From Candidatus Saccharimonadota bacterium (GTDB lineage: Bacteria > Patescibacteriota > Saccharimonadia > Saccharimonadales > Saccharimonadaceae): a stretch of 64,000 nucleotides of DNA. The notes under the pieces were generated by a model. That model searched no databases. It saw only the letters and a list, made by a program, of their open reading frames with translations, and had not been told where the DNA came from. The stretch is taken from positions 186,001 to 250,000 of the forward strand of contig JAFWHO010000004.1 in NCBI GenBank assembly GCA_017515105.1, read 5' to 3'. The translations under genes were made by a program, and so were the position numbers. Positions 3,002-7,185 of the stretch are shown piece by piece (the stretch's first letter is position 1; every line of letters starts with the position of its first letter).

Positions 3002-3030
3002 TTGACTATTCTGCATTTATATGATACTAT
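3002..3030 (+). promoter_or_regulatory. Promoter of the ncRNA candidate at 3037
   Basis: TTGACT at 3002-3007, a 17-nt spacer and TACTAT at 3025-3030. The predicted start (~3037) coincides with the first base of a closing stem. Confidence 0.6.
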
Positions 3031-3036
3031 TCAAGT

Positions 3037-3388
3037 AGTGTGGGCATCGTTGTACTTTTATGTCAGGTGCTTATGGTTCTCCTGGCGGCTAGTCGGCGAA
3101 ATGGATTATTGTTGTCTTTTAGGGGTTAAGTCCCTCGACACTATGCTCTTGGGGCCGAGTAGCGGCAGACGGAATCTAGCCAGCCCATAGAACCGCCTGT
3201 TGGGTTTCAGCCCCCGCTGGGGGTGAAATGTGCTATTATTTAGGCCTGCTGCCGTTTGGTACCTTGTTACTGGGTGGTGGTAAGAAAAATACTAGCGTAG
3301 CCATAACGGTAAAGTCCTTTGGCTGAAACCGCGACCACACTATAACCGGGTCACTGCTCCTATGCGGTGGCCCCTTTTGATTTTTTAG
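3037..3388 (+). ncRNA. Candidate ~350-nt structured RNA, ends closed by a terminal stem
   Basis: The start TAGTGTGG (3036-3043) is perfectly complementary to CCACACTA (3335-3342), so the two ends of a ~300-nt domain close like the P1 helix of a large RNA. A terminator follows immediately: GGGTCACTGC pairs with GCGGTGGCCC around 3348-3374, then a T-rich run to ~3386. No ORF with a ribosome binding site lies inside. Size and closure recall RNase P RNA or tmRNA. The conserved RNase P core (GAGGAAAGTCC) and the tmRNA tRNA-like end (GGTTCGAA-type T-loop, CCA) are absent, and so is the SRP core. Unidentified family. Confidence 0.6.
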
Positions 3389-3472: not shown

Positions 3473-3940
3473 ATGGAGAGAAGACACGCAAAATACGGTA
3501 ATTTTATTGTGAACTCAGCCGGTAAGGTAGTCCCAAGGGCTACCCCTATCGACGACACGGGTATCGACTGGGAGGAAAATGTCGTCGAAGACGACCTCAG
3601 CGTCGTCGAGGAGGTTAATGCAGAGAACGGGTTTACCTTGCACGACGATGATGAGTATAGGCTTGTCCGTGACGTAACGGTGAAGCCGGTGGCGGTCGAG
3701 AGAGGAGACACGATCTACGTGTACTTCAATCCGAGGGACTATGCGATGAAAAAGGCGAAAGCCAAAGCTCGCATAACTCTGGAGGCTCTTGTTCACATGA
3801 ACATCCTCGCAAGCTATGACCTGAAGAGGGTAAGGGGTGGAATCGTAAGGTTATTCTTCAACCCCTTGATTCAGGGTCAGGAGCAAAAACTCCTGGCGGC
3901 AGAAGATTTTGTCAATAGCCTTCGGGGCTGGCGACGGTAA
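3473..3940 (+). CDS. Hypothetical protein (155 aa), orphan
   Basis: The start is ATG 3473 behind AAGGAGGAAA; a GTG at 3422 is upstream but has no ribosome binding site. No membrane segment or signal peptide. The N-terminal half is acidic (DDTGIDWEEN, DDLSVVEEV). The C-terminal half is basic, with predicted strands (GDTIYVYFNPRD) and a helix rich in Lys/Ala. It is flanked by its own promoter and terminator. I do not recognise the family. It belongs stylistically with the other ribosome-binding-site-led orphan genes at 6571, 25749, 41330, 61425 and 61895. Confidence 0.75.
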   Translation: MERRHAKYGNFIVNSAGKVVPRATPIDDTGIDWEENVVEDDLSVVEEVNAENGFTLHDDDEYRLVRDVTVKPVAVERGDTIYVYFNPRDYAMKKAKAKARITLEALVHMNILASYDLKRVRGGIVRLFFNPLIQGQEQKLLAAEDFVNSLRGWRR

Positions 3941-4034: not shown

Positions 4035-4294
4035 TTGACACTTTTTCTAAAGTGTTGTATAATCGTTCTGCTGTCTACCATCATGGAGACAAGCTTCTAA
4101 TATAGTCTTGCGGGAGCAGATACGATCTTTTAAAAAACCATACAACTTAATAAATATTTTTTCACCACTGATTCCACAGTGGCAATGATGCAGCCTGCAA
4201 AGATCGTTTTCTCCATTTTGCCTCCCGCAAGATATCGAACATTATACGGGTAAAACCCGTCTTTGGTCCCATCTGATGATGGGGCTGTTTTTTA
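4035..4294 (+). ncRNA. Tandem ncRNA family, unit 1
   Basis: Promoter TTGACA 4035-4040, 17 nt, TATAAT 4058-4063; predicted start ~4070. A 5' hairpin forms at the start (TGTCT/AGACA). TCTTGCGGGAG (4106-4116) pairs with CTCCCGCAAGA (4222-4232), and inside it ACGATCTTT (4122-4130) pairs with AAAGATCGT (4199-4207), with an apical CCACTG/CAGTGG hairpin. Then comes the box GAACATTA (4237-4244), hairpin ACGGGT/ACCCGT (4246-4260) and a terminator (CCCATC/GATGGG, then T6). No coding ORF. The four units share architecture and 3' motifs while the central domain differs, as expected for paralogous trans-acting RNAs. Confidence 0.75.
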
Positions 4295-4302
4295 TGCTAT
4301 AG

Positions 4303-4572
4303 TTGACAAAAATGCCAAAGTGGTGTATAATTTACTCTGCCTCCTTTTGGTGGTTTTATGTGTTGAGTGGAGGGGCGCGCCAAAAAACAACCTTATTTCT
4401 TAGATAGTGACACTACATTTGCTAACAACTATGCCACTTTCTGAACATTCATGATTGATCTGGCCGCCTATGTGGCCGGAGACTCCTTTCTAAAGGCGCG
4501 CCCCACCACAATGAACATTATTGGGTAAAACCCGTTTAGATAGATGCCCCATCGCGTGATGGGGCATTTTTT
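4303..4572 (+). ncRNA. Tandem ncRNA family, unit 2
   Basis: Promoter TTGACA 4303-4308, 17 nt, TATAAT 4326-4331; start ~4338. A 5' hairpin forms at once (CC-T-CC with GG-T-GG). The closing stem GGGGCGCGCC (4372-4381) pairs perfectly with GGCGCGCCCC (4495-4504), with flanking GTGG/CCAC. Box GAACATTA at 4513-4520 is followed by GGGT/ACCC (4523-4533). The terminator is GCCCCATC (4546-4553) with GATGGGGC (4558-4565), then T. No credible ORF inside. Confidence 0.75.
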
Positions 4573-4612
4573 ACGGTTTGGCACAGATGATTGCTTTATC
4601 GCTGTGGATGGC

Positions 4613-4857
4613 TTGACAATAATGCAATAATAATGTATAATCATGGTGTGCTACCAATTGGTAGTGCTAAGTAATTTTTTCATATCTCCGTGGGGTAGGT
4701 GCATTAAAGCTCTTACGTTGTTGGGGGATGGAAGACCGTCTCCCTTGAAAAAGAAAGGAAAAGCGTGTATGTGTATACCTCCTGCACCTACCCCGCAAGA
4801 ACATTAACGGGCATCGCCCGAAATTCAGAGCCTCATCGCATGGTGAGGCTTTTTTCT
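4613..4857 (+). ncRNA. Tandem ncRNA family, unit 3
   Basis: Promoter TTGACA 4613-4618, 17 nt, TATAAT 4636-4641; start ~4648. The 5' hairpin is CTACC/GGTAG. The closing stem GGGGTAGGTGCA (4692-4703) pairs perfectly with TGCACCTACCCC (4783-4794). Box GAACATTA is at 4799-4806, hairpin CGGGC/GCCCG at 4808-4820, and the terminator GCCTCATC/GGTGAGGC at 4830-4849 is followed by T6. A 64-codon frame running from here into unit 4 crosses the terminator and has no ribosome binding site. Confidence 0.75.
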
Positions 4858-4867
4858 CGTCGAAAAC

Positions 4868-5119
4868 TTGACAAAACTAGCAAAGTAATATATAATTATA
4901 TAGCCTCTATGAGGGCTTTGGGTTACGAATGCGGGAGTGGGCTTTTGAATAACATTTAACAACTTCAAGAAAAGGGTATAAGATAGCAAAAGGGTGTCCC
5001 CTACTAATTGTGCCTAGTAAGGGCCGCCAAAGGATCGCCTCCTAAAAGCCCCTTCCGCAACGAACATTATCGGGCAAACGCCCGCCACGATGCCTCATCG
5101 CATGATGAGGCATTTTTTT
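4868..5119 (+). ncRNA. Tandem ncRNA family, unit 4
   Basis: Promoter TTGACA 4868-4873, 17 nt, TATAAT 4891-4896; start ~4903. The 5' hairpin is GCCTC/GAGGGC. The closing stem at 4931-4946 pairs with 5044-5058 (one bulge and wobbles). An inner hairpin is CCCTACTA/TAGTAAGGG. Box GAACATTA is at 5062-5069, hairpin CGGGC/GCCCG at 5071-5084, and the terminator GCCTCATC/GATGAGGC at 5092-5111 is followed by T7. The tuf promoter starts 14 nt further on. Confidence 0.75.
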
Positions 5120-5132
5120 ACCCAGAATACTC

Positions 5133-5161
5133 TTTACAAAACAAAAAAAATAGTCTAAAAT
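5133..5161 (+). promoter_or_regulatory. tuf promoter
   Basis: TTTACA 5133-5138, 17 nt, TAAAAT 5156-5161. The ~60-nt leader holds a hairpin (TTTGGAGC with GCTCCAAA around 5175-5206) before the AAAGGAG ribosome binding site. Confidence 0.8.
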
Positions 5162-5227
5162 AATAGGGTAGAGATTTGGAGCTGGTTTTTATTAGCGCTC
5201 CAAACGTAATAATAAAAAGGAGATTGA

Positions 5228-6412
5228 ATGGCAAATTTTGACCGTTCCAAACCGCATATTAATGTCGGTACCATGGGTCACGTTGACCATGGTAAAACCA
5301 CTTTAACAGCTGCGATTACTAACGTACTCGCAAAGCGCTTGCCTTCTGAAGTTAACAAGGCAGTTGCTTACGATCAGATCGATAACGCCCCTGAGGAAAA
5401 GGCTCGTGGTATCACCATCGCTACTTCTCACCAGGAGTACGAATCTGAGAAGCGTCACTATGCACACGTAGATATGCCTGGTCACGCTGACTACATTAAA
5501 AACATGATTACCGGTGCTGCACAGGTTGATGGTGCTATCCTCGTAGTTGCTGCGAACGATGGTCCTTTGCCACAGACTCGTGAGCACGTTCTTCTTGCTC
5601 ACCAGGTGAACGTACCTAAGATCATCGTCTTCCTCAACAAGATGGACCTCGCTGATCCTGAACTAGTTGAGTTGGTCGAGATGGATGTTCGCGACCTTCT
5701 TAACAAGTACGGTTTCGATGGTGACAACGCTCCTATCATCAAGGGTTCTGCTACTAAGGCTCTCGAAGGTGACAAGGAAAACGAAGACGCTATCATGGAA
5801 CTCGTCACTGCTATGGATGAGTACTTCGATATCCCTGAGCACGATCTCGACAAGCCATTCCTCATGCCTATCGAGGATGTCTTCTCAATCAAAGGCCGTG
5901 GTACTGTTGCTACTGGTCGTATCGAGCAGGGTGTTATCAAATTGAACGACGAAGTTGAAATCGTTGGTCTTAAGGAAACCCAAAAGTCTGTCGTGACTGG
6001 TATTGAGGCCTTCCACAAGACTCTCGACCAAGGTCAAGCTGGTGATAACGCTGGTCTTCTTCTCCGTGGTATTGAGCGCGATCAAATCGAGCGTGGTCAG
6101 GTGATTGCCAAGCCTGGCACTATCACTCCACACACTGAGTTCGAGGCACAGGTTTACATCTTGAAGAAAGAGGAAGGCGGACGCCACACTCCATTCTCCA
6201 AGGGTTACAAGCCACAGTTCTACTTCCGTACTACTGACGTAACCGGTGAAGTTGAGCTTCCAGCTGACAAGGAAATCGTCATGCCTGGCGATCAGGTAAC
6301 CTTCAAGGTTAAACTCTTGCAGCCAGTCGCCATGAACGACAACGACCGTTTCGCTATCCGCGAAGGTGGTAAGACTGTTGGCTCTGGTGTCATCACCAAG
6401 GTTATAAAGTAA
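5228..6412 (+). CDS. tuf: Translation elongation factor Tu
   Basis: EF-Tu, the GTPase that delivers aminoacyl-tRNA to the ribosome. 394 aa is the normal length. Motifs: [10 protein letters not shown] (P-loop), [12 protein letters not shown] (switch I), DMPGHADY (switch II) and an intact NKMD G4 motif. This contrasts with EF-G in the same window, where the equivalent Asp is Asn. Domains 2 and 3 follow with [13 protein letters not shown] and the C-terminal [14 protein letters not shown]. The ribosome binding site is AAAAGGAG before ATG 5228. Monocistronic, with its own promoter and terminator, directly downstream of the four tandem ncRNAs. Confidence 0.98.
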
Positions 6413-6570: not shown

Positions 6571-7185
6571 ATGAACATTATAAGCAGTTTGGTGGACTTC
6601 ATCCGAGAGACACCGTCTAATATCGCTTTGCTAATACTGATATCCTGGCTAATTTGGCCGGGGTTAATGTTTTTAGTAGGGTGGATCGGAGAGAGCCGGT
6701 TGGTTCCGGTAGGCGAACATCAGTCTACTGCATTCATGCCCGGGGATTTAACCCTTGGAATCATGACAGTGGAGTTGTTGCGCCTTCACGAGAGGACTTG
6801 CAATGATACCAGCTGGTGGGGTTATGACCCAGCCTTTTGGCTGTTCGTTACAATGGTGGTCGCGATGGTCGTATTGGCCTTTGTGATCGAGGGGGATCAG
6901 GAGAATTATCCTCCGAGAGCTTCCTTAAGCCCGACAAAAATTACGCACGACGTGGTCGGGTACTGGTTAATCCCAACATTATTGTTTGGATTGGGGTTAC
7001 CTCAACTAGCCGATGGCATCCGCTTCGGGATCGGTGAATCCTGGCCCATCTGGCTCGAATTTACGATGGCGCTATCTTTCTATGTCGCTTGCGTCGTGAA
7101 CGATTGTCTAAAAGGGGCAACAGAAGAAGATATCGCGATTCGTCATCCGGCGAATTGGCAGCCACTCTGGCGGAGAGCCGAATAA
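6571..7185 (+). CDS. Hypothetical multi-pass membrane protein (204 aa)
   Basis: The start ATG 6571 is chosen because AAAGGGGG lies 7-8 nt upstream; the longer frame from TTG 6547 would start before this ribosome binding site. About four hydrophobic helices are visible, near residues 17-40, 88-106, 130-147 and 158-178, with a Trp-rich loop. The C-terminal ~25 residues are soluble. No catalytic motif is recognised. It stands alone with an extended -10 promoter and a terminator at 7201-7228. Function unknown. Its codon usage (GGG, CGA, GAG) is less biased than that of the neighbouring ribosomal genes. Confidence 0.75.
   Translation: MNIISSLVDFIRETPSNIALLILISWLIWPGLMFLVGWIGESRLVPVGEHQSTAFMPGDLTLGIMTVELLRLHERTCNDTSWWGYDPAFWLFVTMVVAMVVLAFVIEGDQENYPPRASLSPTKITHDVVGYWLIPTLLFGLGLPQLADGIRFGIGESWPIWLEFTMALSFYVACVVNDCLKGATEEDIAIRHPANWQPLWRRAE

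Follow-up and report, generated by a model that had tools for sequence, protein, structure and literature searches.

What is encoded in the spacer between fusA and tuf of this Candidatus Saccharimonadota genome (811 kb in 4 contigs, 99% complete)? The window analysed here is a stretch of 64,000 nucleotides (contig JAFWHO010000004.1, positions 186,001 to 250,000), and four head-to-tail units lie at 4035–5121 between its fusA (830–2929) and tuf (5228–6412) genes. Each unit runs in the same order: a TTGACA-N17-TATAAT promoter, a 5′ hairpin, a 12–16 bp long-range helix round a divergent body, the box GAACATTA, a GGG/CCC hairpin and a terminator with its T tract (Table 1). An earlier note on this DNA had described four promoter-to-terminator units, and the promoters, GGG/CCC hairpins and terminators were all found where it had placed them; its four box positions were confirmed by sequence. 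Perfect TTGACA-N17-TATAAT sites number 27 genome-wide, and four of the 27 are the array promoters, all on the same strand and within 834 bp. Copies of the box with a GGG/CCC hairpin after it number four in the whole 811-kb genome, all of them inside the array; the reversed control has none.

Table 1. Features of the four array units (positions in the window).
Unit	Feature	Position	Strand	Basis
1	promoter TTGACA-N17-TATAAT	4035..4063	+	sequence
1	5′ hairpin at predicted start	4070..4094	+	fold
1	closing helix 5′ arm TCTTGCGGGAG	4106..4116	+	fold, shuffle test, covariation
1	divergent body	4117..4221	+	fold, body comparison
1	closing helix 3′ arm CTCCCGCAAGA	4222..4232	+	fold, shuffle test, covariation
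1	box GAACATTA	4237..4244	+	sequence
1	box-proximal hairpin ACGGGT/ACCCGT	4246..4260	+	fold, 3′-module model
1	terminator + T tract	4266..4293	+	fold, sequence
2	promoter	4303..4331	+	sequence
2	5′ hairpin (weak)	4339..4354	+	fold
2	closing helix 5′ arm GTGGAGGGGCGCGCC	4367..4381	+	fold, shuffle test, covariation
2	divergent body, extra GAACATT at 4443 missing from other bodies	4382..4494	+	fold, sequence
2	closing helix 3′ arm GGCGCGCCCCACCAC	4495..4509	+	fold, shuffle test, covariation
2	box GAACATTA	4513..4520	+	sequence
2	hairpin GGGT/ACCC	4522..4534	+	fold, 3′-module model
2	terminator + T tract	4546..4572	+	fold, sequence
3	promoter	4613..4641	+	sequence
3	5′ hairpin	4648..4667	+	fold
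3	closing helix 5′ arm GTGGGGTAGGTGCA	4690..4703	+	fold, shuffle test, covariation
3	divergent body	4704..4782	+	fold
3	closing helix 3′ arm TGCACCTACCCCGC	4783..4796	+	fold, shuffle test, covariation
3	box GAACATTA	4799..4806	+	sequence
3	hairpin CGGGC/GCCCG	4808..4820	+	fold, 3′-module model
3	terminator + T tract	4830..4855	+	fold, sequence
4	promoter	4868..4896	+	sequence
4	5′ hairpin	4902..4917	+	fold
4	closing helix 5′ arm TGCGGGAGTGGGCTTTT	4930..4946	+	fold, shuffle test, covariation
4	divergent body	4947..5043	+	fold, body comparison
4	closing helix 3′ arm AAAAGCCCCTTCCGCA	5044..5059	+	fold, shuffle test, covariation
4	box GAACATTA	5062..5069	+	sequence
4	hairpin CGGGC/GCCCG	5071..5084	+	fold
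4	terminator + T tract	5092..5119	+	fold, sequence

The four units are without coding potential, as the genome scan found no Shine-Dalgarno-led ORF of more than 13 codons inside them. Orphan transcription units are uncommon in this genome; the same scan returned eight non-coding promoter-to-terminator candidates, and the array accounts for half of them (four of eight). From their promoters and terminators we infer that the four units are transcribed. The array is flanked by fusA, tuf, rpsJ and two orphan proteins, at 3473–3937 (155 aa) and 6571–7182, that are inserted among these genes. Neither orphan protein has a Pfam match or a significant PHROG match; the 155-aa protein has no PDB or phage match either, and no link was found between it and the array RNAs. 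In relatives the fusA–tuf spacer is short or contains unrelated ORFs, the latter in several species of the genus. Two other elements were seen in this region: a tuf leader hairpin, TTTGGAGCTGGTTTTTATTAGCGCTCCAAA (window 5160–5205), whose conservation ahead of tuf extends across several species of the genus, is a possible cis-regulatory element outside Rfam, and one congener locus (L040) has a long near-perfect MITE-like palindrome upstream of tuf, in the corresponding spacer.

The predicted minimum free energies of units 1–4 are −73, −88, −83 and −78 kcal/mol with z-scores of −6.0, −5.6, −5.7 and −3.7 against dinucleotide shuffles, and the closing helix beside the box outscores 300/300, 300/300, 300/300 and 299/300 shuffles, respectively. 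A model (R1) trained only on the 3′ modules of units 1–3, with unit 4 held out, recovers unit 4 at 63.5 bits. The earlier note had taken compensatory changes in the array as selection on structure, which needs a correction: the 3′ module contains only two double-sided pair changes, and since both divide the units 2:2 (units 1–2 versus 3–4), each may be a single event. The closing helix adds three further double-sided pair changes. Across its nine basal pairs plus the terminator four pairs have changed on both sides, 91% of the cells of the closing helix and terminator are paired (38–50% in slid controls), and their covariation score is reached by 0/500 shuffles, in a test for which the helix arms were joined by hand, so that the result leans towards structure. 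Together the closing-helix and 3′-module changes are stronger evidence for structural selection, still from four sequences, and selection on structure is thus supported by four paralogues of one genome. Outside the helices, nothing is as conserved as the box. Its state in the predicted folds differs between units: unpaired in unit 1 and mostly so in unit 3, largely paired in unit 2, and half-paired in unit 4. That the box and its adjacent hairpin are conserved in sequence while the helices covary points to a sequence-specific readout.

Are the divergent bodies related to one another? The closing stems had been called unrelated in sequence, and this does not hold for units 1 and 4, which are clearly homologous: they have a common helix base, TGCGGGAG/CTYCCGCA, and a body homology that only 3/300 shuffles equalled, so at least some of the bodies are diverged paralogues and not unrelated inserts. 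The homology between the bodies of units 2 and 4 is weak (13/300 shuffles as good), and the body of unit 3 has no detectable homology to the others by the same shuffle comparison. The units 1/4 body homology and the recovery of held-out unit 4 bear out the earlier reading of the units as paralogous ncRNAs. At the level of sequence, these are four non-coding structured RNA genes of ~210–240 nt, each with promoter-like and terminator-like sequences, and descendants of one ancestor by tandem duplication; the RNA molecules themselves appear to be well supported.

Does the family extend beyond this genome? The window has no Rfam 15 match at or above gathering score, in agreement with the earlier remark that the units match no known family. 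When the array region was compared with Rfam at E ≤ 10, only weak terminator-like matches to PyrR, NsiR1 and Spot 42 were found (17.8–23.4 bits versus gathering scores of 39–80; E 0.75–1.6), and as all lie under their gathering scores we attribute them to chance or terminator similarity. The homologues that had been expected in related genomes were absent from those searched with R1 or with sequence patterns. From 118 genus, 295 family, 393 class and 380 phylum genomes (overlapping samples) R1 retrieved only look-alikes, for the most part terminators, and the matches of 23–34 bits that were inspected look like terminators of other genes, tRNA ends or coding DNA. Exact or gapped box patterns gave no homologue in family and genus genomes, and the box-hairpin pattern matched twice in the other 173 congeners, in neither case with an array-type promoter or closing helix and in one case within a long ORF. 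One congener locus (L060) combines a promoter and a long helix with a terminator resembling those of the array; it lacks the box, has no tandem copy and is not counted as a homologue. A DNA pattern search of 85,000 GTDB species gave 41 single scattered matches in unrelated phyla, which is in the chance range; two patterns applied to IMG/VR gave eleven single matches and none, with no supported homologue (one match, L052, has a weak R1 score of 20.8 bits and reads as coding DNA), and the phage and plasmid searches gave no match to the array. The array family is at present an orphan that occurs in one of 174 congeneric genomes, and the absence of homologues, which the earlier note had named as a refuting outcome, shows taxonomic restriction, not absence of the RNA.

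What might such RNAs do? An invariant 8-nt box close to the terminator and a tandem multicopy layout, which is typical of sibling sRNAs, would suit base-pairing siblings in the style of LhrC, Qrr or NmsR, in which GAACAUUA would be a common mRNA seed that the structures present and stabilise; the folds predicted for units 1 and 3 leave the box largely open, and the genome encodes an R3H (KhpB-like) protein. However, target statistics give no support to this idea or to the trans-acting role through the box proposed in the earlier note: among 444 translation start regions, TAATGTTC occurs 0 times, the box complement UAAUGUUC, which holds a start codon, was not found, and the heptamer TAATGTT occurs once versus 4.8 times for permuted words (start sites were roughly called, and weak targets could escape these statistics). 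This lack of enrichment of box antisense at translation starts favours a protein over seed pairing. In addition, the best box duplex lies at an internal ATG of a gene and does not stand out from shuffles, of which 13/60 and 21/60 did equally well, no unit has an antisense match to its own genome longer than those of controls, no Hfq was detected in the genome by phmmer with two approximate seed sequences, and the box is predicted to be paired in unit 2 and half-paired in unit 4. We consider a shared seed rather unlikely.

Alternatively, each body could be antisense to, or a decoy for, its own target (an mRNA, a protein or an infecting phage), with the 3′ module serving stability and termination only. 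It fits this idea that the bodies are the most variable part and yet the helix that presents them is kept; however, their antisense matches in their own genome do not go beyond shuffled controls and they have no phage or plasmid match, and such body-specific regulators seem unlikely. The units could also be selfish or neutral tandem duplicates, transcribed and functionless, from a recent duplication in a variable spacer, as might be suggested by their occurrence in only one of 174 congeneric genomes and in a spacer with orphan ORFs. Neutral copies would be expected to lose elements, and these strongly diverged copies have kept promoters, closing helices, box, hairpin and terminators intact with compensatory changes, which argues against this possibility and makes it very improbable. 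A divergent guide, RT-associated or housekeeping RNA (tracrRNA, TIGR array, retron, DGR RNA, 6S, SRP, RNase P or tmRNA) is hardly credible: the order of long helix, nexus-like hairpin and terminator is superficially tracrRNA-like, and neither tmRNA nor class A RNase P RNA was recognised in the genome, but the whole genome has no reverse transcriptase (PF00078) and no Nop-domain Tas protein, the units have neither a short repeat-spacer array nor tRNA-like ends, and Rfam at E ≤ 10 gave only the weak terminator-like matches above.

By this elimination (seed targets, RT-linked RNAs and TIGR arrays are all argued against) we favour, tentatively and at somewhat less than even confidence, a protein-bound family: sibling RNAs that act as ribonucleoproteins, with a 3′ handle that stays constant and a body that diverges. 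The constant 3′ module (base of the closing helix, GAACAUUA, GGG/CCC hairpin and terminator) would serve as the docking site of a single protein or RNA chaperone, and the long helix would present a freely diverging body that either provides each sibling with a partner of its own or simply drifts; extra gene copies could give a higher dose or a wider repertoire. The array would be a lineage-specific acquisition in the fusA–tuf spacer, where congeners often carry unrelated ORFs. We infer every step of this mechanism, and against it count the variation in box accessibility among predicted folds and the small sample of only four sequences from one genome. A more specific version, in which the array represents a new class of small RNP whose 3′ module with GAACAUUA is bound by a putative CPR protein and whose hypervariable, helix-enclosed bodies form a tandem repertoire of specificities, is distinctly doubtful.

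Other structured elements were seen elsewhere in the genome. Three larger ncRNA-like units, with their own promoters and terminator and a closing stem of the type TA(G/T)TGTGGG...CCCACAATA, lie at window 3002–3385, C1:82756–83095 and C1:83134–83725; the latter two are in tandem near the spc ribosomal operon, the window copy has a fold z-score of only −1.7, and none of the three has an Rfam match. A GC-rich palindromic repeat of ~68 nt inside a helicase-like ORF (C2:23781–23848), of which a congener has one intergenically, is perhaps a mobile palindromic repeat. No tmRNA was found in the genome by ARAGORN or at the Rfam cut-off (17 of the 20 genomes searched, a set that includes this one, have tmRNA) and no class A RNase P RNA either; assembly gaps or divergence may account for this.

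Little spare DNA is expected in the reduced genomes of the CPR group, and our search of the literature available to us found no study of regulatory RNAs in that group. If this interpretation is true, the presence beside tuf of four structured RNA genes with strong promoters, packed into ~1.1 kb, diverging under structural constraint and absent from all congeners examined, would mean that even reduced CPR genomes gain and multiply RNA genes specific to their lineage. The array is compact and lends itself to testing in any host-dependent culture that the species permits.

How does the array compare with known systems? With PyrR, NsiR1 and Spot 42 it shares a terminator-like hairpin only, and it differs from retron, DGR and other RT-associated RNAs in that its genome encodes no reverse transcriptase (above). 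A 6S RNA would be recognised by an Rfam match or as a single long rod closed at its very ends; the array has no Rfam 6S match, and the closing helix of its units encloses neither the 5′ hairpin nor the 3′ module. ROOL, GOLLD and OLE are much longer than the array units. These large ornate RNAs are described as non-coding and highly structured (PMC12286853), as the array units are, but the array has four different tandem paralogues and no Rfam match. The TIGR arrays of TIGR-Tas are reported as tandem RNA units from phage and parasitic bacteria (PMC12045711); the array differs from them in having no short repeat-spacer units, a promoter and terminator per unit, and no Nop-domain protein in its genome. 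Sibling sRNAs include the multicopy LhrC1-5 of Listeria, which have a conserved segment (PMC5880928), and those of Neisseria (PMC5362039). The array units are unlike sibling sRNAs in their ~210–240 nt length, with a long-range helix round a large divergent body, and in that no start-site targets of the box and no Hfq were detected and only one genome has them. They are like them in being paralogous genes with a conserved segment and, as far as sequence can tell, the array is a set of four tandem genes, each with its own promoter and terminator.
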